Positions 2,972 to 31,634 of a stretch of 34,596 nucleotides of DNA are shown in pieces. Origin of the DNA: Neelides folsomi (taxonomy: Eukaryota; Arthropoda; Collembola; Neelipleona; Neelidae); NCBI GenBank assembly GCA_034687125.1, contig JAQGBZ010000534.1, forward strand, positions 1 through 34,596. The letters run 5' to 3'. Position 1 is the first letter of the stretch. Each line of letters starts with the position of its first letter. The notes under the pieces were generated by a model. That model was not told the DNA's origin. It did no database searches and was given only the letters and a program-made list of their open reading frames with translations. A program made the translations under genes and the position numbers.

Positions 2972-3805
2972 TGTGAAATGACTTAATTTAAATTAATAAT
3001 TTTTAATAATAATTTTTGCTCATTTGTGGAATAAGTTTTTTCCTTTGCTATAAAGTTTGTTAGTGAGTTTTGAGTTTATACGCAAAAGTAGGGTGTACTG
3101 CATAATATGTAATAGTTTGTCATTTTTAAACAAAATTCCCATTTAGATTAAAAACAATTGAATATGAAATGATGAATTGATAAAATGAAGATGCTTTAAT
3201 GTCTATACATTAACTGTGTATTACCTATATAATATACATTTATTGATTTAAGCATTAACACTTAGGAGGAAAGTTTTAAAGCACATCTAAAAATAATTAT
3301 CATGAAAATTGAGAAATTGAATTGTTCTTCAGAATGAGTATCAAGTGGCCATATGGAGTGCGGAGTCCTACATATGTAAAGTGTACTAATAATCTGCTGT
3401 CAATTAGACAAGTTTTTAAAGTCAATGTCTATGATAATAATAATTGATAATAAAAGATGTCTGACATATTGATTGACAAATTCATATTATTGAATGGAAC
3501 ACTGATATGCTGTTTACATACATTACTTAACATCTAAATGCCTAATACCTACTAAAATAATTACATATATGATATTGTGCACATTAATGTACTATTTAAC
3601 ATAGTTCCTGTTTATGATTTATTGAATTTATTTAAAGTCAATAATTATAAATTATGTATTTAAATGCATTTTAGTAAATTGATTTATTAAATCGATTATA
3701 CTCCCATTCAGCTACTTTTTTCAAACAATCCGCAAAGTATAAATAATTGAATATGAATGTTAAATATTATTATTAATAATACCTATTAGTAAAATGGTAT
3801 ATTAT
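2972..3805. other. Intergenic spacer between the two sphingomyelinase-like genes
   Basis: About 830 bp of AT-rich sequence with no credible ORF. It should hold the promoter of the downstream minus-strand gene. A TATAAA on the minus strand at 3080-3075 lies about 105 bp before that gene's ATG, but no clear initiator is spaced from it. Nothing else is recognisable. Confidence 0.5.
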
Positions 3806-6644
3806 TTAATGTATATTATGAACAAAGTAAATAAACACAGTCGCGATTAAAAGAGTCAAGTTGATATTTACGATGGTAGACATTCCTTTGTTTTCTTGAG
3901 TTGACGATTCCGTGCTTTTGTTCTCTGTTGTTGGCTCACTCGAAGTTGTTGGAATGAATGTCGAGGAAGATGTGATAATTTCCTCTGTGGTTTTTGTTGT
4001 AGGAATAACCGTAGAAGTTGATTCTGATATTGTCGAGATTATAATTGTTGTTGAGGAAGTTGACTCAAGAGGTGGATCTAATAAATAATTTATAACCATT
4101 TATATCTCTATTTATTTATAATTTTAAGAAAGATAACTTCAATTAAATATACCAAAAATGTTTTTAATGATTTCACAATTAAATTCATTTGCAGAATCTC
4201 CTCTTACAGCGTTACACAAATAATTGATTTTGCATTGTTTATTTGTTTCTGCACATTCTCTATAATGGTCTCTCCCGCCTTTTGAATATGTCCTGTTCAT
4301 AAAACATGAAAGTTAAGTATAAATGAAATTTCGTAATGTTGTGATGAAATTTAATACCATTGATATTTTGTGAAAAGTTCATGATCATCGATCATCCTTA
4401 ACACAAAATCGTAAACATCTTGTGGTCTTTGTGATTTCATTCCAAAGAATTCAGATGCTAAATACAGCCTTGTCCAATTCGCTTGTTCTAGCTTATTAGA
4501 AGACGCCAAATCCATGACCCATTCATCGTGATCAATAATTTCCCATGTAGCGTCATCTCGCGCACCATCAACAAAATAAGTTTTGTATGCGTAGCCCCCT
4601 CTATCAGGAGTTCCCGAAGGGGAAATGTATTGGACGCCAGTTGCTCTTTGGCTCTCATCTTCAAAATGTAATCTGAATTCGTCATCATGTCCATGACCAT
4701 AAAATTGTCCTTTGATAATTCCTTCATATCGGTTAATAATCCGATCGAATTCATCGCTCCATTTAGGCCAATAAGCTCCACTTCCAGGACTCGCATGCCC
4801 AATAATTAAAACATTCTCATTTGAATCTTCCGCGTCTTGCAATGTATCCGACAGCCATTGGAGTTCCCCAAATGTGTCATTTGTGTAATAAGCCAACCAG
4901 TAATTATTAACGTAGGCCAAATTTGAATTTATAATAATAAAACGAACTCCCGGTTCGGGGGAATATTGAAAATATCCATATTGCAAAAAATGTTCTTTTT
5001 CATCTTCCGGAATTAAAGTTGGGAATTGGTCATCGATTAAATTGTAAAGCCAGGAAAGATCGAAACCTTGATCCCAAGTTTCTGGCGGAGAAAATAAATT
5101 AACAACATCTGGTTCGTGATTTCCAACTACTGGAATTATTGGAACAGATGGGAAATAATGTTTAAGTCGATCAAACGCGTGTACATGATGGCGCGTATTT
5201 TCTTCAACACTGTAGAGCCAAATGACCGAATGAATGAAATCTCCCGTTAAAAAGATATATTTTGCGTCCTAAATACATTTTATAATCAGAGTTGTTCTTA
5301 TTTCAATATCCAAATTAATGCCAATTAATGTTATTTAACGATAAATAGCTAACTGAATGAATATTCGCGGCATGTTCAAACATTGCATCAAGTCCACCAG
5401 GTGGCATTGCACAATTTCCATGGCCGTATTTTCCCGCTCTATCAGCTTCGCTTTCAGGTTCACCATCGCGACAACAACCTTGGGAACTTCCACAGTTTGC
5501 ATTTGAGCCTTCAATATAATCAAGATCCATATGGATATCAGTAAACTGAATAATTTTTATGGATTCGACATTTTCCTAAATTACATAAAAATACATCGAA
5601 AATTGTGTTTTTAATTCACATTTAGCTAAAATTAAACTTAGAATTTTTAAAATCTAAGAACTTAATTTTTACAGGCAAAGGAGGTTGCTCAACGACTGGT
5701 GGTTTATCTTCATTTATGTTAATTTTCCATGAAGTGTATCTTGGATGCACAGGTGCACAGCCAGGCTCCAATATTCCACAAATATCATTAGCTGTCATTA
5801 AAGGTCGGCTTTTAACAATGTGGACTACTGGATTCTAAACATTAAATAAAATCATCAAAATCATCACAATAAAATATTGACTTTTTGATATTTCCCGCAA
5901 TTTTACCGCAAATCCTCGAATGAGTTGATCACAAGCGTCTACTGGAATAATTCCAGTTTCTACGCACATTCCTATCGCAAACTGAATGATTGGTTCAGTT
6001 ATGTTAAGTAAAGCTGCTGCTTTTATTGCTGGAATTGCAAGTTTGCAAGTGTCGCAATCAATGTAGTCAAGTCTCTCATCAATTCCTTTATGGGGTTTTA
6101 TTTCAGTCTTTAATGATTTCAAATAGTAAAGTGTCCAATCCTTCAATCCATGTCTAAATACAAGCGTCCATGTGATCAATAAACAATTCATCAACCAAAT
6201 AATGTAAAAAATTACAAAAAGAGAAATAATATTATTAGGATTAGTCAGTATAATAGGGTTACGTGCAAATACATATAATGTTCTAAGGCTAACATTCGGA
6301 ATCTCTGCAAAACCATGGTTTTTCCATGGTTCATAACCATGTTCCATGGTTCCAGCGCGCATTTGAATAGGAATGGTGATTAGCGCCATCTAACCTAACC
6401 TAACCTAGCCTAACATATAAGAATAGGGAATCATGGTGCCCCATGGTTCTAGCATGGTTTTGCAGAGACTCCGAATCTCAGCCTGTTCTAATTATCGCGA
6501 ATGAAACAGTTGGTAAAAAGTTAAGATTTACCGTTTAGATTCTAAATGTTTGACAAATTTTCCTACTTCGTCTATATTTTCACTTGGACAAGAAAACGAA
6601 CGAGTAAACGTTATAGCAAAAATAAATATAATATAAAAATTCAT
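3806..6644 (-). CDS. Acid sphingomyelinase-like phosphodiesterase, copy 2 (complete)
   Basis: Exons, in transcription order: 6644-6532, 6153-5907, 5834-5673, 5575-5354, 5268-4358, 4292-4153, 4077-3806. All phases join to 688 codons plus stop. Three exons (113, 911 and 140 nt) have exactly the length of their partners in the neighbouring copy, and all six intron positions and phases match, so the pair arose by tandem duplication. Signal peptide MNFYIIFIFAITFTRSFS; saposin-B-like domain (IDCDTC, GMCVET, DACDQL); catalytic motifs FTDIH, TGD, GNHE, IIGH and YGHGH. The second exon is 84 nt shorter than in copy 1 and lacks its CPNQFC segment. The last exon encodes a Ser/Thr-rich stalk ending in a hydrophobic stretch (LTLLIATVFIYFV) with almost no residues after it, the pattern of a GPI-attachment signal. 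A family A MITE sits in intron 1. Predicted to act at the cell surface (inference). Confidence 0.9.
6287..6483. mobile_element. Non-autonomous hAT-like MITE, family A copy 2
   Basis: A 197-bp insertion in intron 1 of the second sphingomyelinase-like gene. The left end reads GGCTAACATTCGGAATCTCT; the right end reverse-complemented reads GGCTGAGATTCGGAGTCTCT, and the match continues through GCAAAACCATG. It is flanked by a perfect 8-bp duplication TGTTCTAA at 6279-6286 and 6484-6491. The inside carries several CCATGG palindromes and a (CCTAA)3-type run near 6390-6410. No coding capacity. Confidence 0.88.
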
Positions 6645-21176: not shown

Positions 21177-23402
21177 TCATTTTCTCATTTTAATAATTAT
21201 TTCACAAAAAATTACCATTATGCTAAATACTAATCCAATTAACAAAATTAAAAATATTGACAAAATATTGCTATTTTTCAATTCATCCTTAGAATTATCA
21301 AAGTAGAAATTATTTTTTGTCATTTCACTAAACATCCATGATTTTGTTAATGAATCCGAAAGGTGTTTTCTGCAAACTCCACTCCAAAGTTTATAAATCC
21401 CAGTTTCAAAAATTATTTGAAATAAATTTGAAATGTGTTTATTATGAAAACTTTTAAAAAACCATACTTGGTTTCTTTTAAAATATTCAACTTTTCCCAT
21501 TCCAGCTTTTGCCCCTTTTGTTTTGCGCATTGATAATTCTTTATACAAATCTAAACCCTGCGAATCTCCATATAAACAAACCTTTTCGAAATTCATCATT
21601 TTTCTAAATATAATTTTATCCTCCACCTGAATTTCCATCCTATTTAAAAGTTCTACAAGATCATGTTTAGTTTTCGGTATCTCTGTGTAATTAAATGAAA
21701 TGATCCCACAAGGAATATCATCTGAATTATATGTTGGTCTAAAAACTCCAAAATTTTGAGAACCAGGAATATTTGAATATTTCATACAATTACTTTCATT
21801 TATCTGAGTCCTGTAAATAAATTGACCTAAATATTCTGCAATTGGATCGAAATGGTAAAGCGGTGATTTAATCCCAGTAAAATAACTTTTGTAAATTTCA
21901 TAATTCTGCTCAATCAAATCTCTAATGTAACTTGGTTGTTCCATATTAGATGGAGCTATAACATGCGTTACTACAGCGCTCTTATACGAATTGCTCAAAA
22001 TGATGCTTGAAAGTAGCCAAATAAAAAGCGGGATAATTAAACTTGTAGAAACATAATTCAAACTTTTAGCTCTTCTTCCATAGGGCTGTTCAACCAAAGC
22101 GCCAAATTCTGGAATTCCATTCCATATGGTTTTAGATTTAAATTTATTTTTGTGAATGAGATAAGAAATAAGAGTGAAAGAAATATATGAACAAATAATT
22201 AAAAGTAAGCAATATTGACAAAAAGCGCTCCAAAAATGATCAACTTGAATTTTCTTGACGTGAAAATAGGTTAGGAAATTTTGACTGCTGGTTCCAACTG
22301 TCACGTAATAATCATACAAATTGGTTTGTTTTTCTGCTGCTTCGTTCGAGTCAGAAATTCTAAAGTCAGGACCGTATGTATCAAGTGTCGACTCGGGCGC
22401 AAAATCGATAGGGAGTCGTATTATATTTATTGAACTGAATTTCACTTTAAATCGATTTGGAAATGAAAAGTTATTCAGAGACTTAATGCGGCCAAATACA
22501 ATGTACCAAAAAACTTCAATTTCTCTGGAAAGATCCCATTGATTCCACATACCAATATAATCCTTTTTTCGCACATTTTGCTTGCATATTAATGATGTTT
22601 GTAAATATTCATTTAAAATAAATTGGTTAACATTTTCATTAAAATCTGAATCAAAAACATCGGGAATATCTCTTCTTTTTTTCTTAATTAAATTTTTATC
22701 TACAAAATTTCCAATTAATTCAAATGAACCGATCATTTTTTCTTCATTCATATCTTCAAGATCATTTAATTCAAATATTACTGCTTGTCTTTTTAAGCAG
22801 TTGATGCATAAAAATTGCATGGATTGTGTTTTATTTTCAGGATTTATTGAAAGAAATGCAACATTTATATTATTTCTTAGTTCTATTAAAAATGGCATTA
22901 TTTGTTTAGTAATGTTTTTTATAATGTCGTTAGAATCTTGAATAAAAATAGTAAAATCATAAATTGATTTATAAATGTAAGGAAATCCAATAAAACTCAT
23001 GCATATTGTAACTGGACTGCAAAATCTTGAAATATTTAACGAATTGTTAACAATTAAATTATTGTAAAATAAAACAAATTTAACATTACAAGTTCTTTTA
23101 AAAAACCCAAAATACCCCGTGTAATTTTTGTTATCTACAGATATATAAATTTCATAACTTCTAATATTATTGTATATGGAATAAACATTTGTCATTTTTT
23201 GCAAAATAATGTCCAATTTATCTGATTCATTATTTGGAAATATCTCAATAGCACAAGTATTAAATCTATTAATGAATTGTTCAATGTTACGGGTTATTAT
23301 TTCACTTTTGTTTTGATTCAAATAATAATTCATAAATGGAACAAAATCTTTGGAATAAACTGATGTGCATAATGAAACAATTTGAAATATTTTAAAGATC
23401 AT
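21177..23402 (-). CDS. Divergent ionotropic receptor (IR), single exon
   Basis: One uninterrupted frame of 741 residues from the ATG at 23402 (MIFKIFQIVSLCTSVYS, a signal peptide). Upstream in-frame codons exist but no earlier ATG. A long variable extracellular N-terminal region is followed by the ligand-gated channel part: S1 (FRISDSN region), M1 (FCQYCLLLIICSYISFTLI), the pore/M2 region ending LSNSYKSAVVTHVIAPSN (the SYTANLAAFLT equivalent of glutamate receptors), S2 with EQPSYIRDLIEQ, and M3 (ILSIFLILLIGLVFSIMVIF) close to the C-terminus. IRs are variant glutamate receptors acting as chemosensory cation channels. Intronless, rapidly diverging members are typical of the species-specific divergent class. 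Ligand unknown. A decayed relative lies at 33167-34596. Confidence 0.88.
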   Translation of the reverse strand: MIFKIFQIVSLCTSVYSKDFVPFMNYYLNQNKSEIITRNIEQFINRFNTCAIEIFPNNESDKLDIILQKMTNVYSIYNNIRSYEIYISVDNKNYTGYFGFFKRTCNVKFVLFYNNLIVNNSLNISRFCSPVTICMSFIGFPYIYKSIYDFTIFIQDSNDIIKNITKQIMPFLIELRNNINVAFLSINPENKTQSMQFLCINCLKRQAVIFELNDLEDMNEEKMIGSFELIGNFVDKNLIKKKRRDIPDVFDSDFNENVNQFILNEYLQTSLICKQNVRKKDYIGMWNQWDLSREIEVFWYIVFGRIKSLNNFSFPNRFKVKFSSINIIRLPIDFAPESTLDTYGPDFRISDSNEAAEKQTNLYDYYVTVGTSSQNFLTYFHVKKIQVDHFWSAFCQYCLLLIICSYISFTLISYLIHKNKFKSKTIWNGIPEFGALVEQPYGRRAKSLNYVSTSLIIPLFIWLLSSIILSNSYKSAVVTHVIAPSNMEQPSYIRDLIEQNYEIYKSYFTGIKSPLYHFDPIAEYLGQFIYRTQINESNCMKYSNIPGSQNFGVFRPTYNSDDIPCGIISFNYTEIPKTKHDLVELLNRMEIQVEDKIIFRKMMNFEKVCLYGDSQGLDLYKELSMRKTKGAKAGMGKVEYFKRNQVWFFKSFHNKHISNLFQIIFETGIYKLWSGVCRKHLSDSLTKSWMFSEMTKNNFYFDNSKDELKNSNILSIFLILLIGLVFSIMVIFCEIIIKMRK

Positions 23403-23646
23403 TTTCTGAATTACATTTAATATAAATTCATAACAATTAAACAAAAATTTTATGCTCTAAAAGGAAATTTTCAAATTGGTGAATTTTTTATAAGAATAAA
23501 ATGACTTTAATTTCAAATAACATATTTTATTTGATATACAATATTACTCAAAATTTAATAATGTATTATGTGAGGTCTTATTTTCTTTAATTCAGTTAAT
23601 GGAATTGTAACAAATACTATTATTAAGATAAACAAGTACTTGTAAG

Positions 23647-23838
23647 GGGAGATCCCAGTTAGCCGACAGCCGAGGTACAAGTTAGCCGAATAGCCGACGT
23701 CCAAGTTAGCCGAATATTTCCTTTAACATTATATTTCCTATCTAATCTCCAAGTTGGCCAAATAGCCGAAGTACAAGTTAGCCGAATAGCCGAATAGGGA
23801 CAACAGCCGATCTCCAAGTTGGCCGAATACTTTCAAAA
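23647..23838 (+). repeat. Left terminal inverted repeat of the 5.35-kb element
   Basis: Built from degenerate direct subrepeats such as AAGTTAGCCGAATAGCCGA and CTCCAAGTTGGCCGAATA, separated by an AT-rich spacer (TTTCCTTTAACATTATATTT). Its reverse complement recurs at 28803-28996 with differences at very few positions after the outermost 12 bp. Confidence 0.93.
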
Positions 23839-24201
23839 TGGTTCTCTTGTGTTGCGAGAAATAGAAAAATGTATTAGTTCATAGTTTTACAATGCCCATT
23901 TAAAGATAAGAATTCTGGAATCGATAATGTACATTCACCAAATGATATGCTTTACCAATACGCAAATACTTATTGTTATGCCATCTGGAATCGAATTGTA
24001 ATACCAATAAACATGAGTTAAAAACTGAGTTTTATTCAAATTTACATAATTTACGCTGATGTAATTTACAATAATTTTAAATTAAATTGATTGCATTTAA
24101 TGTTACCTCTTTTATTAAAAACAATAATGTCCGATTATTAAACATTAATTTAGTTATCATTTACTAAATCATAACCAGCATCTTCTTAAAGTTAATTCAA
24201 C
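23839..24201. other. 5' noncoding part of the 5.35-kb element
   Basis: About 360 bp of AT-rich sequence between the left inverted repeat and the first ATG (CAACATGAATTC). It should hold the element's promoter. No clear TATA/initiator pair was found. Confidence 0.4.
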
Positions 24202-27200
24202 ATGAATTCAGATTCAGGTAATTTGAGTAATACCATAATTAATAGTTTGTTAAGTAAATTCATTTTATCTTACAAAATTTCAATAAACATCTTAATGCCA
24301 GTAGCATTTCTAAATACTTGAAAAACACTTTCAAATTGTTAACAATGTGAACCTGTTCTATTTGAATTTGAGTGGTATTTGAATTTATTTCTAGAAGATA
24401 TATTCACATCAAATTACCATGCCAATTTGAATGACTGGAATTTTAATAAATTTAAAAAAGGTAGCCATTTAATATTATGAAAAATGTAAATCCTAGGAAA
24501 AAGACGTTACAATCTATTTAAAATTTAAATTGAACTCATTTTATTGTTTAATATTTTTCTAGATTTCACTCACAGTTCTCCTATTACAAATGAGCAAACA
24601 AGAAAAAGAATTTTACAAAGATCCAGATAAAAGTTATAATGAACTTCTAAGGGATACCACTAAACTTGGTCACTCAATTAATAAATGTCAAATCGGAAAG
24701 AGGAAAATGCTTTTAATACCAAATTGGGGAGATTCGAATTCAATCTGGGGAGATATTGAAAAGGATTTGTTAAAATCTGACAAAGTTGACGATGAAAGAA
24801 CGCGATTTTGGATTTTTAATATGTGGACTGACAATCAAAATGCAATTCAAGTATATAAATATTTTCATATTAATTAAATTAGTGTATATTATAATTTTAC
24901 ATTTATAGTAGGTATACCTTAATTTCTACGATTCTAATATATTATGTAGTAAGTCAATAATTTTAAAGTACGATTTAAATTTGGTAATAAATTTAGGACA
25001 GAGTTTACCAATTAGGAAGAAAAAGATCGAAACGCAAACTAAGTGATTTGGATATTAACGGGTGTTTTTGTAAACTAAAACAAGAAAAAGGAGATCCAGC
25101 AACAATTTTTTGCAATGGCTGTAAAACAAATTACCATTTTATTTGCTTAAAAATCAGCGCTGAGATTGAAATTGCCAATTTTCAATGTGAATTTTGCCAA
25201 AATAAAAGAGAACAAATGGTCGTGTCTCAAGCAGCACAGACTTCTATTGACGGTTAATATTTACCAATTTATACACATATTTACAGAGTAGCTATTAACA
25301 TTATTAGTAATAATAAAAATGGTTTAATAAGTAAAATGTTATAGCATGCTATTCAATTTAATTTTTATTGTATTTATAGAGAATAAACAAAATTCGTACA
25401 TCAATGATGCACAAATGTCATTACAATACGATGTTGATGAATATCATGAATTTTTTAATACATCCAATGAATCGAAGAGGGCCAAACTGACGTTGAGCAC
25501 TGAAAACAAAATTTTTGAAAATCCATTACAATTGTTTACGAATTCAGAAATGTTTACATTTCATGGAGAATTATCGCCAATTAAACAACAAACGTCAAAT
25601 GTTTTTGAAATTATAAATATATAAAAATATATAGTAATTAGAAATTCCTCATAAATTATTTAAAAAATAATTACCTAAATAAGATAACATTTATTTAGTT
25701 ACTTTAAAATGTATTAATAAAAATTTATTACAAGAATTCTATATAATATATTTAATTAATAGGCCCAGTCAGTGAATACTCGGTTGATAATTCTCCTTCA
25801 GATAAAAGTAATTTTATAAAAAAATATTTTATAAATACTTCATAATTTTTGGTCATAAACATTAAAATACAAATCAAAAATTCTTTTATTTAGGATTTGT
25901 CGACGTGAAAAATCTTCCAAAAAACTTCCATTTTCAAATGTCTCAAAAAGAATTCAGGAATCTTTTCATGAAAACTCAAGTCCTTTCAAAATCAGGAATT
26001 AAAAAAACAGTCGAATCTTTATTACCGATTTACACTGACATATTGGCAGAGAATTTCAATATACACAATCCGCAATGTGTTTTGAAATTTAATAAGAAAA
26101 TTTTAAATAGAAATTCCAAAATGATATTGACTGTTTACGCTAAATGCAAAAGAACGGGATGTGAAGCTACGATAGTGTTTTCTGTGGCAAATCATCAAGA
26201 AGGAGAATTTATTAAAATCAATGTTAGGTATTTCAACATTTAAATTTCTATTTTGTATTTACAATTATTGATCATTAATATCCTAGGTATATTCATTATT
26301 CATTAATAATAAATAAATTTCTACAAATAAAGGACATCCGGGGAAATAAAGCATATCGCAGGTGAAAAGAAATTTCGTCATTTGAAAGAACAAAGAAGGA
26401 GTGAAGCAAAAGATATTTTGCAATTTAAAAAACCAACAGCTGTTAGAAGGCTCAAATTTCAAAATGCAAATATTGCCGAAATTACAAGCGGAAACTACAC
26501 GTCTGTTAAAACTTTGAAAGTTTTTCAAACTGCGCGACTGGAGGTAAATTTGAATTATTTATTTTTGTTTAAAATTTAATTAAGTATATAGTATAGTTTT
26601 GGTTTAAAAATATATTATTAATACAATTGTAAGAAATTAAATAAATTTAAATGTTATTTTAATATTTCAATTAAAATAAAGTTTATAAAATTTTTGTTAA
26701 AAATATATATGGATTATATATATAATATTAAGAGACTAAATAACCTTATAAATAGATATACATATAAAATAATTTATTACGCTATTGTTTGTATATTTTT
26801 TTAAATCATTTAAAATTGTTTGGAAACTTTTAGAAATTCTCTGAAGACGATACTACTAATGCTATTGGTATACTTTTTTACCATTAAAATTTTTTTAAAA
26901 TTATTTAATGGTAAAAATAATTTTATAGAAAATCAACACAAAATATTGAAAGTGGATTTGAATTTTGGACGAAAGAAAATGCCACCAGGGAGGTTCTTGC
27001 GCGAACAAACAAAATTCATTACAGGTATTTGAGTATTGAGTACATAATGTTTTGATGCTATTTATTTAATGCATTATTCAAATATTATAATTTTATAATT
27101 TTAAAGGACGACTCAATCAATTCGAAGCATTAATGGATTCACTTCCAATTCACAAAAAGGATTCCAGCATTTTGGGTATCTATTAAATTCAAATATTAAT

Positions 27201-28227
27201 TTTATATCTTTTAGTTTATTATTAATTTTTATAATTATTTTTAAATTAAACTATTATTTATTATTTTGTTATAGAAAAGTCACGTGGAAGCCCAGAATCC
27301 AAAAAAGAAATTTTCTTAAAAAAACAAAGAGCTGAATTTCCCATAATGGCAACAAGTTGTTCGAATTATGTATTAATTCCATGGGGCGGCAATGCTCAGT
27401 TGCTCACTGAAAATGGATTCGAGAATATTACATTGGAAAATACTTGTAATATTGATGCTCCTATGAACATTTTATTTGAAATGTTCAATAACAACAGAAC
27501 AGCACAAATGTTCATTCAATCCAAAGCTAACCAAATTGATTTTGAAGCATCAACATTAATTGATATTTTCAAAAGTTTACAAAAAAAAGAATTTTCAGAA
27601 GCGAAACTTTTATGGATTACAAAGTTGTTAAAGGGCAAAGTTTCAACAACCACTAATTGTTTTTCCGATACACTTTCTAGTGGTTTGAAACCTTTCGGCC
27701 TTTGGAATCAGTTCATTAAATGTCGAAAATGCGAAAACGTCACTTGTTCTTCAAATTTTCCTGAAAATTCCACTTCAGCGATTGATGAATTACACTTACT
27801 TCCAACTAATTCTGAATTAATCACCATCGATCTAATATTCAATGTATCACCAACAGAATTTTTGAACAAAATCAATGGTATAACCATTGAAAATCATTGT
27901 AGGTTCTGCAAAGCCAAGTTTGTAAATGTTACCTACAATTTCGTGAATAATTTACCAGACGTTATATTTTATAATGTAAATGGTTGTTTTCCATCATCAA
28001 ACATTTATTGCTCAGAGTCTGAACTCCCATTGACTCAAGTTATTAAAAACACACCATTTGATGTATTTGGATATACAGTCTATACAGGCAACCATATTTA
28101 TGCTGTAATTTGCCATGAAGGTAAAAAGATTTTGTTCGATGGATTAAAATCAAAAGTTTCTGTTCACTCAGAAATTAGTCGGACATCTTCTATTGATTCG
28201 GTTTGGCTTGTAAAATCTAATGTGTAA
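24202..28227 (+). CDS. Transposon-borne PHD-finger and USP-like cysteine-peptidase protein
   Basis: Exons 24202-24217, 24576-24850, 24997-25252, 25380-~25600, 25763-25807, 25894-26227, 26333-26543, 26834-26867, 26929-27024, 27107-27175 and 27275-28227. All phases join except between exons 4 and 5, where no in-phase donor is visible. About 850 residues. Exon 3: PHD finger (CFCKL, FCNGC, YHFICL, CEFC). Exons 6-7: a basic block with CKRTGC and a run RRSEAKDILQF..ARLE resembling the N-terminal DNA-binding region of insect Mutator-like transposases. Exon 11: a peptidase-like domain with a putative nucleophile in LENTCNID, a zinc ribbon of CRKC and CRFC pairs, and a His-box GNHIYAVICHEG followed by LFDG, as in ubiquitin-specific peptidases. 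The DDE catalytic core expected between exons 7 and 11 is not seen. Family assignment is inference. Confidence 0.7.
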
Positions 28228-28802
28228 TTTTGTTTCATATCAATTTAAAAATGTAAATATTTAATTGAATCCATTAACTTTTATTCATTTTTTGTTAGTC
28301 ATTTAATTGATCAATTAAAATAAATTTATATTTATATTTAATTATAATATAATTTAAGTTTTCAGATTTTTAAGCCTTAAATTATTATTCATCATTAATT
28401 TAAAATTATTGTTATTATGATAAAGTAATCTATAGAAGTTTTTTCTAAATTAACTTATACTGTTAAAATAATAAATATATCTAAGTATTATAATTTAATA
28501 TAGAGATATACAGATAGTTGTTCAAAGTTATAATTTGTAATATATTTGAATCAATAAATTTTGATAACGCTGATAAATATTAAATCATTTATTCATATAA
28601 ATTTCAGCATTACCGAAATTGAAAATCAACATTCAATACTTTAATTACATAATAATAAAATTAATAAATGCTATTTATAATGTAATTTATGTTGGTAATA
28701 ACATACGATATAATTAGGAATTTCAAAGAAAATGTGCAATAATAATCGATAAAAAAATTCTAATAAAACTAATTTTAACATCATAATTAATTTGAAATAT
28801 AA
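28228..28802. other. 3' noncoding part of the 5.35-kb element
   Basis: About 575 bp, extremely AT-rich, between the stop codon and the right inverted repeat. AATAAA-type signals are frequent here, so the cleavage site cannot be chosen. No other ORF. Confidence 0.4.
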
Positions 28803-28996
28803 TATTTTGAAAGTATTCGGCCAACTTGGAGATCGGCTGTTGTCCCTATTCGGCTATTCGGCTAACTTGTGCGTCGGCTATTCGGCCAACTTGGAGATTA
28901 GATAGGAAATATAATGTTAAAGGAAATATTCGGCTAACTTGGACGTCGGCTATTCGGCTAACTTGTACCTCGGCTTTCGGCTAACTTGGAGATGCA
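28803..28996 (-). repeat. Right terminal inverted repeat of the 5.35-kb element
   Basis: Inverse copy of 23647-23838, with the same order of GCCGAA subrepeats and the same AT-rich spacer. Differences include GGCCGAATA for GGCCAAATA and CGCAC for AGTAC. The near-identity implies recent insertion or sequence homogenisation. Confidence 0.93.
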
Positions 28997-29174
28997 ACTT
29001 GTAAGTTTATTCATTTATAATGCAGTAAATCATTTATTTCAATTTCAATTTCATTATTACAGATTTGATGTATTATTTATTTAGATTTTAATCATTTTAA
29101 CATCCGAATTTATATTGAAAATTATATATTAAAAATTTGGAATTTTTTGTTGAGTTGAGTTAATTAGATTGTTT

Positions 29175-31634
29175 TCAAACAGAAATTGGCCATATTTTAT
29201 TATAACATATTTTAAAATATTGTTCTTGTCGGCATTCTTGAATATCTTCGCAATCTGTGTTTTTTGAACAAAAGCAATAATCCCACAACGCACATTTCTT
29301 CAAGTCGGGATCCGTGTCATATTCATTGGAAACATTTAAAAGTCTCTTGCCGAATTTATTCATAAAAATTCCATTAGGATCAAATGTTTTCATTAAATTT
29401 TTGAACTTTATGGTTAAATTGGGGTATGTAGTTGAGAAATTTTCTAATCTTTCTTGAGAATGAAAAATGAGCCCATTTTTCCCTTCAAATAAAAATTCCA
29501 TTTAAAATCTTTCAATAATTTATATCAACAAAATTTAATATTTATATTTCATAGTTTTATTAGTTTAGTATTTACCCCAATGTGGTCTTCCTTTATACTT
29601 ATTCAGCTAATTACAAAACAAAAAATTATTAGAATAGTTGTAAATTAAATTTAGTTTCTATAGTTCTATTTCTAAACTATAGTCTCAAAATCAAGTTAAC
29701 CAAACATTTCGCGAGTTTAACGTCAAGTAAAAAATTGAAACTTACATATTACCCTCGACCAATGAACGTTTGATATTTTTGAGCTATAGAAAAAGTGTTC
29801 AATTAAAGTTGAAACTCTCACCAAAAATAACAAACGTTGATTGGTTGTGGGTAAAATGATAGTTTTATTTTTTACTTGACGCTAAACTCCCGAATTGTAT
29901 GACTAACTTGCTTTTGTGCTTGTGAGAGGAATACATAATACATAGATATAACAATAGCTATAATAAGTTTATTAGTAGTTAAATCTGACTTGTTTAATTA
30001 AATGAAATCTAAATTTCATTTATATCTTCTAGGAATTAAATTATTTGAATATTATAATATTACTAGAAGTTGTCCCATTCCTTGGTAAGCTGCTATTCCC
30101 ATTCGTGACTTTGTATAGCTTTCATTTCCACGTCTTTGAATATTTATAAATTCAACGTAAGCTGTTTCATCGGAATCTTCAATTGCCATATAATTCGTAT
30201 AAGAAAGATTTCCTGAAAATCTAATAAAAATTCCCAATAATGGAAAAATCGGACCATTATTTTTTTTAAAAAATTTTTTAAATAATTCGTCTATATCTAT
30301 CAAGGCATTAGTTAAATTGGCAAGTTTAATTGCAATTGCTGTTTCAACTGGTTCAATTGAATTTTCCCCATGATTCCAAGGACAATTAAATCCATTTCCT
30401 TCACAGATATTGGTCATCATGTATCCTTAAAGTATATATTATGAGTTTACGTATTTTTAATTATAAAATGCCTATAATTAATTTTTTTAAGATAACATTA
30501 AAAATAATAATCTTACCAATATACCCCACTGCTGGATTTACATACGTTTTTAAATCCGAGTTGCGTTCGTAGAAAAACGCCCTTTTAAATAAAGGACCAA
30601 CGCCTTTAAAATAAAATTCCTGCGAAGCAAATTCAATCAATTTCATTCCATTGTTCAATCTATTATTTTGAGCAAATTCAAGCCCAGTTGAAAAAAAATT
30701 TGCACTAGTGTTATCAATTCCTGGAATCATATTGGTTGAACAATTGTTTAAACCAATTCTATCCAATAAAATATTTGCTTTATTGACCTTTGATCCATAA
30801 GATACAACAATTTTTTTAATATTCGGATACCAAAATACTTGATATATATCTTCTTTACGAGCATTATCGGTTAAATTTTTAGAAAACAAAAATGTATCAT
30901 TAAGCTCGATATTCATAATCTTAACTTTATATTCTGGGACAACTCTTAAAGTGGCACTTAAAATTATTCCCAACAATCCAAGATGAACTCGAAATCCACG
31001 AATGATATGAGCTTCATCCGAAGAAAAAGTGTTATTGTTTGTAGGTAATTGAACATTATGATAATTCCCCAAGCCATCGATGAATTCAACGCCATCTACA
31101 AGTTCTGATATCGAATTAGTAGTTTTTAAACTTGAACCACGTGCTCCGGTTCCCATGGCTCCTCCAATTGAAATTCCTCCATATGCTGGAACATGACCGA
31201 GAGTAAGATTGTTTTTATGAAGTTCGTCGATTGCGTTCATCAGCATAACTCCAGAACCAAGTAAAACAGTTTTTTTATCCTGACTGATAGTGATATTGAT
31301 AAAGTATTTCATTGACATTGGAATTCCATCTGTGCAAATGACGTCAGTCATCGAATGACGATTCCCGATGGCTTTTACAGTTAAATTATTTGAATTGGCA
31401 TATCGAACAATTTCTTGCACTTCTTCTTTATTTTTTGGGAACTTGATTTCAGTTGCAGGTTTACATAAAACAGTTTTTTGATAAGACCTGTAACTGTTAT
31501 CCCTGTTAAAAAATACAGTTATTTAAATTATTTTTTAGAAACATTATAAAAATGTAATTTTTCATAATTTTAACTTGCGTTGCCAAGGTATTACAAACCA
31601 TCAAGAATAATATTGATAATTTTAATATGCCCAT
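29175..31634 (-). CDS. Plant-type L-gulono-/sugar-1,4-lactone oxidase
   Basis: Exons, in transcription order: 31634-~31575 (tentative), 31502-30517, 30425-30064, 29606-29576, 29482-29175. Exons 2-5 join in phase. Exon 1 encodes a signal peptide (MGILKLSILFLMVCNTLAT), but its best donor is out of phase with exon 2, so that junction is unresolved. The N-terminal FAD-binding (PCMH) domain has AIGNRHSMTDVICTDG, with the His that links FAD in the family, and GGAMGTGARGSS. The C-terminal ALO domain ends in the hallmark GRPHWGKNG and FDPNGIFMN. A cysteine-rich tail follows (KKCALWDYCFCS, TDCED, ECRQE, ICY). The family oxidises aldonolactones to ascorbate-type products using O2. The tail and the HS/GTGARGSS motifs match plant GulLO proteins better than vertebrate GULO. 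Predicted secreted or in the secretory pathway. Intron 3 carries a foldback repeat. Confidence 0.85.
29711..29892. mobile_element. Foldback-type MITE in the lactone-oxidase intron
   Basis: A ~180-bp imperfect palindrome. The left arm GCGAGTTTAACGTCAAGTAA pairs with the right arm (reverse-complemented) GGGAGTTTAGCGTCAAGTAA, and the match continues through AAAAAT. An inner pair, CGACCAATGAACGTTTG versus CAACCAATCAACGTTTG, extends the symmetry almost to the centre. No clear target duplication was found. Lies wholly within the intron 29607-30063. Confidence 0.75.

Follow-up and report, generated by a model that had tools for sequence, protein, structure and literature searches.

A probable Rehavkus-like Mutator element with an open but internally deleted transposase gene in the genome of Neelides folsomi

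Contig JAQGBZ010000534.1 (C534) of the Neelides folsomi assembly GCA_034687125.1 was analyzed over its entire length of 34,596 nucleotides (hereafter, the window), while genome searches covered the whole 75-Mb assembly of 840 contigs. This assembly gave three matches to 7tm_6, the odorant-receptor family of insects, against none in 14 control genomes, which by itself would suggest an insect. Positions 23647–28996 of the window are occupied by a 5,350-bp element that is very probably a DNA transposon of the cut-and-paste kind, from a Rehavkus-like, PHD-bearing branch of the Mutator elements, present here as a non-autonomous derivative formed by internal deletion.

The outer borders proposed for this element in an earlier note hold, and its ends and flanks bear out the view that the block moved as one unit. 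Two subrepeat-rich terminal inverted repeats (TIRs) delimit it, the left one at 23647–23839 on the plus strand, with terminus GGGAGATCCC and six AGTT(A/G)GCC(G/A)A units, and the right one at 28804–28996 on the minus strand, with terminus TGCATCTCC. Their arms (23653–23839 and 28804–28990) are 97% complementary over 187 nt, or ~193 bp when counted out to the borders, and the inverted-repeat match reaches 315 bits, whereas the best value that order-1 simulation of this region produced in 50 runs was 50.9 bits. GCCGA subrepeats number 10 in the left end and 11 in the right one, 39-nt repeat families within the ends show spacings of 24, 72, 24, 17 and 41, 72, 24, and the G+C content is 45% in the ends, 25% in the element interior, and 28% in the window. 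Immediately outside the TIRs, with no strand assigned, stand two copies of the 9-bp target-site duplication (TSD) ACTTGTAAG (23638–23646 and 28997–29005), the only ones on the plus strand of the window; the chance of a 9/9 match at the local composition is ~2e-5, and 0 of 9,604 shifted control pairs reached it. No paralogous empty site was found, the joined flanks of the insertion matching no other place in the assembly.

The window element belongs to a dispersed mobile family. Further copies with these ends, for which the earlier note had advised a search, were indeed found: end-like sequence was detected in at least 41 places with the left-end query and at least 42 with the right-end query, the window's own two ends being counted. 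Six of the 16 end-bearing regions inspected contain an inverted pair (C486, C792, C106, C514, C429, and C345), and five of these short elements are bordered by duplications, matching at 9/9 in C486 (CATAAAATT), C106 (ACAAAAAAG), C429 (TATAAAAAA), and C345 (GTTAAATAT) and at 8/9 in C792, with a border position that can slide by one base in some of them; the right border of C514 could not be placed, and C351 also gave no usable border pair. The target duplications are A/T-rich, and an equal value is attained by as many as 0.00021 of the shifted control pairs, so that single cases are weaker evidence, while taken together they are strong. The termini are asymmetric in a recurrent manner, GGGAGATCCC on one side being paired with (T/G)GCATCTCC on the opposite side in the window, C486, and C792; close variants are found in C106 and C429, and C345 displays a third terminus type on both sides. 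A second group of end-like sequences (C381, C339, C499, C173, C375:19919, and C297), ~75–97% alike over 130–340 bp and with common outer borders, was also observed and probably represents a further subfamily of this transposon.

Between the TIRs lies a multi-exon gene, as had been claimed, although with 12 exons instead of the 11 originally counted; all are on the plus strand, are separated by 11 GT-AG introns, and encode an 852-aa product open from ATG to stop. Exon 1 (24202–24217, with the ATG) and exon 2 (24395–24460), both short, are predicted, as is the acceptor before 25773. Exon 3 (24576–24850) encodes an N-terminal domain common to relatives on C380, C582, and C786, and exon 4 (24997–25252) the PHD finger (residues 142–186, ~25063–25197). 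The frame would be kept from exon 5 (25380–25593) to exon 6 (25773–25807) by an intron whose donor follows 25593 and whose acceptor is the second AG. Exon 7 (25894–26227) contains a family-conserved Cys-rich (CKRxxCEA) region, exon 8 (26333–26543) a conserved basic region directly preceding the catalytic region of the relatives, and exon 9 (26834–26867) has 34 bp. A codon divided between exon 9 and the start of exon 10 (26929–27024) encodes the E of a retained TTNxIENxxK motif, and exon 11 (27107–27175) leads to exon 12 (27275–28227, stop at 28225–28227), which encodes a C-terminal domain whose conserved features are NTCNIDAxMN, paired cysteines, HIYAV, and FDG. Pfam, the only family library used, detects PHD in the N-terminal part (3.8e-5, 24.1 bits, cut-off 24), the sole family reaching its cut-off; on the whole 852-aa protein PHD falls below it (3.3e-4, 21.1 bits), whereas the finger is recognized in excerpts of the relatives on C380 (2.1e-9) and C582 (1.1e-7). 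Searches of a large protein database, those with the proposed catalytic region included, gave nothing at E ≤ 0.001 or 0.1.

Conservation of the C-terminal domain among relatives was observed for NTCNIDAxMN (5/5 rows covering it), HIYA (4/5, C66 differing), and FDG (4/4). The series NTC...HIYAV...FDG is reminiscent, by eye only, of a Cys/His/Asp triad and of a ubiquitin-protease layout, and its H is F in C66. The peptidase label of the earlier note rests on motif resemblance, and the reading of the last exon as a C19-like peptidase was rejected, since Pfam, PDB sequences, and the protein database all failed to support it; with E values of up to 10 (E ≤ 10) allowed, neither Pfam nor the PDB sequences yielded a C19 match. 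A single-sequence fold prediction of this exon gave a mean predicted local distance difference test (pLDDT) value of 36.9, too poor to use.

The C-terminal half of the gene matches 14 other contigs and the N-terminal half two further ones, so the gene is multi-copy, with relatives on 16 other contigs. On four of them (C375, C351, C339, and C232), no more than 1.2 kb separates all or part of the gene from a family-type end. Protein identity to the relatives is ~50–74% for most exons. Because it is multi-copy and also stands beside family-type ends elsewhere, the gene is read as that of a transposase, which decides the choice between transposase and captured gene that the earlier note had put forward. 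Near the left side of C351 and of C375 there are 'accatggtt' repeats.

In C115, C375, C351, and C380, open stretches occur between the regions matching the window residues that flank exon 9. When spliced, relatives carry ...VVLMMDATKG..., ...EIDFSK-ALLSAV..., ...VHICRIH..., and ...EDTTNxIENxxK..., or close variants, C351 having neither of the two D pieces and C380 and C375 not having been read as far as the last of these motifs. The distance from D1 to D2 is 79 residues in C115, 78 in C375, and 87 in C380, the D2–C distance is 43 in each of them, and that from D2 to the E motif is 221 in C115, with exon borders of the relatives placed by eye and one C375 border adjusted by hand. As judged from the order of these motifs, the three proteins appear to share the D-D-C(2)H layout of Mutator-type transposases, whose features, according to the available portion of PMC3942029, include a long helical insert and, beyond D2, a C/D(2)H motif; the E of TTNxIE would then be the catalytic residue. 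The catalytic region of C115 is interrupted at ~3080–3235 by a short insert of palindromic sequence (ACTCTCGTTAGAAAGTTAGCTCTTGAG...) that may be a miniature element of its own.

This region is the part that the window copy has lost. A query with it returned 23 matches on 10 contigs of the assembly and none on the window contig, and the window protein has neither D motif nor the C(2)H, while it retains TTNxIE, the PHD finger, the Cys-rich region, and the C-terminal domain. Two points that adjoin each other in the window copy are separated in C115 by about 1.6 kb encoding ~366 residues, the interval being 1,593 bp in C115 (apparent nested insert included) and 1,036 bp in C351. The place of the loss is exon 9 (AAATTCTCTGAAGACGATACTACTAATGCTATTG), which starts like the first catalytic exon (K.SEDD; AAATTATCAGAAGACGATTTC in C375) and ends like the last one (EDTTN.I; GAAGATGATACAACAAATGCGATAG in C609), fused at the junction GAAGACGAT (26843–26851). 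GAAGAYGAT marks this joint; it is seen on the left side in C375 and C351 and on the right side in C609, and a parent resembling C375 on the left and C609 on the right would have carried it on either side. Altogether, these comparisons suggest that one internal deletion removed most of the presumed catalytic core from the window copy and kept the frame. Compared with C375, C351 has a deletion of its own, 650 bp long, that removes D1 and D2, so the family has lost this presumed catalytic part at least twice.

The following course of events is consistent with these observations. Fuller members of the family would encode a multi-exon transposase composed of a PHD finger (in some of them), a Cys-rich DNA-binding-like region, a DDE-like domain with C(2)H, and the C-terminal domain. 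This enzyme may bind the element through the tandem GCCGA subrepeats of its two ends, cut it out, and reintegrate it at a target site cleaved with a 9-bp stagger. The window copy would have lost ~366 residues, comprising D1, D2, C(2)H, and the stretch between them and the E motif, apparently by deletion between two short GAAGAY-type repeats, as slippage or incomplete gap repair would produce. Since most of the presumed catalytic core is deleted, the window copy probably moves only in trans, with transposase supplied by another member of the family, and full members might likewise mobilize other derivatives with matching ends. Internal deletion would thereby be a route to a non-autonomous foldback-type element whose gene is still open.

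Regarding its placement among known kinds, the element fits a Rehavkus-like Mutator element by its TSD, TIR length, subrepeats, and PHD finger, and the earlier proposal of foldback/Rehavkus-type ends with 9-bp duplications is supported by a table in PMC6446971, which lists for Rehavkus a 9-bp TSD, TIRs of 26–400 bp, and a PHD finger; the 187 bp aligned here are within that range. In the portions available of PMC6446971 and PMC10218199, Rehavkus elements, such as the 9.5-kb Rehavkus-1_TC of Tribolium, share with the window element tandem subrepeats in inverted ends and arthropod hosts, whereas the subrepeat spacing is 164 bp there versus ~24 bp here. According to that same portion of PMC6446971, few Rehavkus elements are known and, as of 2019, they were described in Repbase only. 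The present family, of which no description was recognized in the literature searched, adds a Rehavkus-like member with asymmetric termini and miniature derivatives. Unlike Rehavkus, the window copy has no D1/D2 part of the catalytic region, and the term Rehavkus-like refers to its architecture.

Foldback ends and an internal protein gene also characterize the FB-NOF foldback element of Drosophila, which is reportedly non-autonomous and whose FB ends are much longer than those of the window element. The Tetris/DAIBAM elements of Drosophila virilis resemble the family in having TIRs with internal tandem repeats and 8–10 bp TSDs, as well as large and miniature elements with common ends for which an autonomous parent was not found, as far as the accessible part of PMC4079207 describes them. 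On the contrary, in that description Tetris has no apparent protein-coding capacity and repeats of ~220 bp. For Galileo, the same part of the Tetris paper (PMC4079207) states that the end repeats contain extra transposase binding sites. Transposases with Ulp1, OTU, or Peptidase C19 domains are on record in the accessible part of PMC2836005, and these protease-bearing Ginger1 and Mutator proteins resemble the product of the window gene in their extra C-terminal domain, one Ginger1 family having both Ulp1 and PHD; the C-terminal domain of the window gene, in contrast, has no significant protease match.

Several aspects weigh against this interpretation. Considering the family, (i) a single recognizable end was found in 10 of the 16 regions, which in part is the outcome that the earlier note had named as refuting, although most of these regions were inspected ~2.5 kb to either side and a mate farther off would escape, (ii) nothing in the inspected stretch of C115 matches the PHD half, and (iii) the direct parent is not seen, the DDE-bearing relatives being ~50–67% identical in most common exons and no closer DDE-bearing copy having been found in the assembly. 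Considering the catalytic region, (iv) Pfam models, PDB sequences, and database proteins all fail to match the proposed DDE region, even in profile searches, and the RNase H fold is accordingly deduced from motif order, (v) the D2–C distance of 43 in the family exceeds the 11–19 given for prokaryotic Mutator-like transposases in the available portion of PMC3942029, (vi) the spacings depend on borders drawn by eye, and the intronless join before the D2 exon may inflate the value of 87 in C380, and (vii) on the right side, C351 and C115 have GAAGAY with no GAT following. If the region is indeed catalytic, it has diverged too far to be recognized in any of the collections named under (iv).

An alternative considered unlikely is that the truncated, DDE-less protein has been retained for action in trans, either repressing the family or serving as a domesticated DNA- or chromatin-binding protein. 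The truncated KP protein, a repressor of the P element, offers a parallel. The deletion kept the frame, and the 852-aa frame is open throughout with GT-AG introns, unlike in the seven relatives C115, C351, C557, C563, C339, C380, and C582, each of which shows a stop, frameshift, deletion, or insertion (stops in C115 and C380; a deletion and frameshifts in C351), damage that also weighs against any claim of present family activity. The open frame is nonetheless not unique to the window copy, C375 being likewise free of lesions in the exons read (up to 57792, the contig ending at 58665, which by the window layout is probably too short for the last exon). The C-terminal exon, compared with that of C66 over 77 codons, gives a nonsynonymous divergence (dN) of 0.16 and a synonymous one (dS) of 1.08, dS being above 2 for C115, C351, and C339; these values show past constraint on the family, not necessarily after the deletion, and constraint preceding the last transposition explains them. 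Similarly, the insertion may simply be too young to have decayed, as the perfect 9/9 TSD and the 97% ends would permit. Improbable as it is, the deletion product could be a stable, catalytically dead PHD protein that still binds the subrepeat ends and is kept as a repressor or as an incipient host chromatin factor; if so, it would have been caught still inside its own transposon ends.

Among the damaged relatives, two overlapping frames at C582:3131–4082, which we take to resemble a Merlin/IS1016-type transposase, follow and may interrupt the relative of the element's gene, and at C563:15023–15683 a tandem repeat (translation MVHHGEVHHGDGAP, repeated) splits the C-terminal exon.

Less probable still is a Pack-MULE-like capture, in which the PHD protein would be a fragment of a host gene held between transposon ends. 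The multi-exon structure with spliceosomal introns, the PHD finger, typical of chromatin proteins, and the failure of Pfam to find a transposase domain in the window copy would suit a captured gene, and the earlier note had indeed called it host-like. The genome searches, in which not every match was looked at individually, led us to reject this possibility, as they show a multi-copy gene linked to element ends, a PHD finger that recurs in the relatives, and a DDE-like region that falls exactly between the two gene halves. A seemingly host-like gene between inverted repeats can be a transposase minus its catalytic core, which serves as a warning. Finally, that the ends are a dispersed minisatellite with the gene between two copies by chance, as the abundance of end-like places and the single ends in 10/16 regions might suggest, is hardly credible and was rejected, given that the window element and five others are bounded by 9-bp duplications, that the ends are paired in 6/16 regions, and that the asymmetric termini recur.

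The preferred reading of a deleted Rehavkus-like transposon places its insertion between the presumed end of a FAD-binding-domain gene (stop near 29175), whose two pieces probably form one gene, and a minus-strand open frame of 759 aa (21177–23456), the element being ~180–240 bp from the 5' end of that frame. The 759-aa frame, which has no Pfam match at E ≤ 0.001, resembles a divergent ionotropic receptor. Elsewhere in the window, the frames at 789–1796 and 4351–5268 (minus strand) appear related by eye, the first one matching Pfam Metallophos, and both resemble acid sphingomyelinases.

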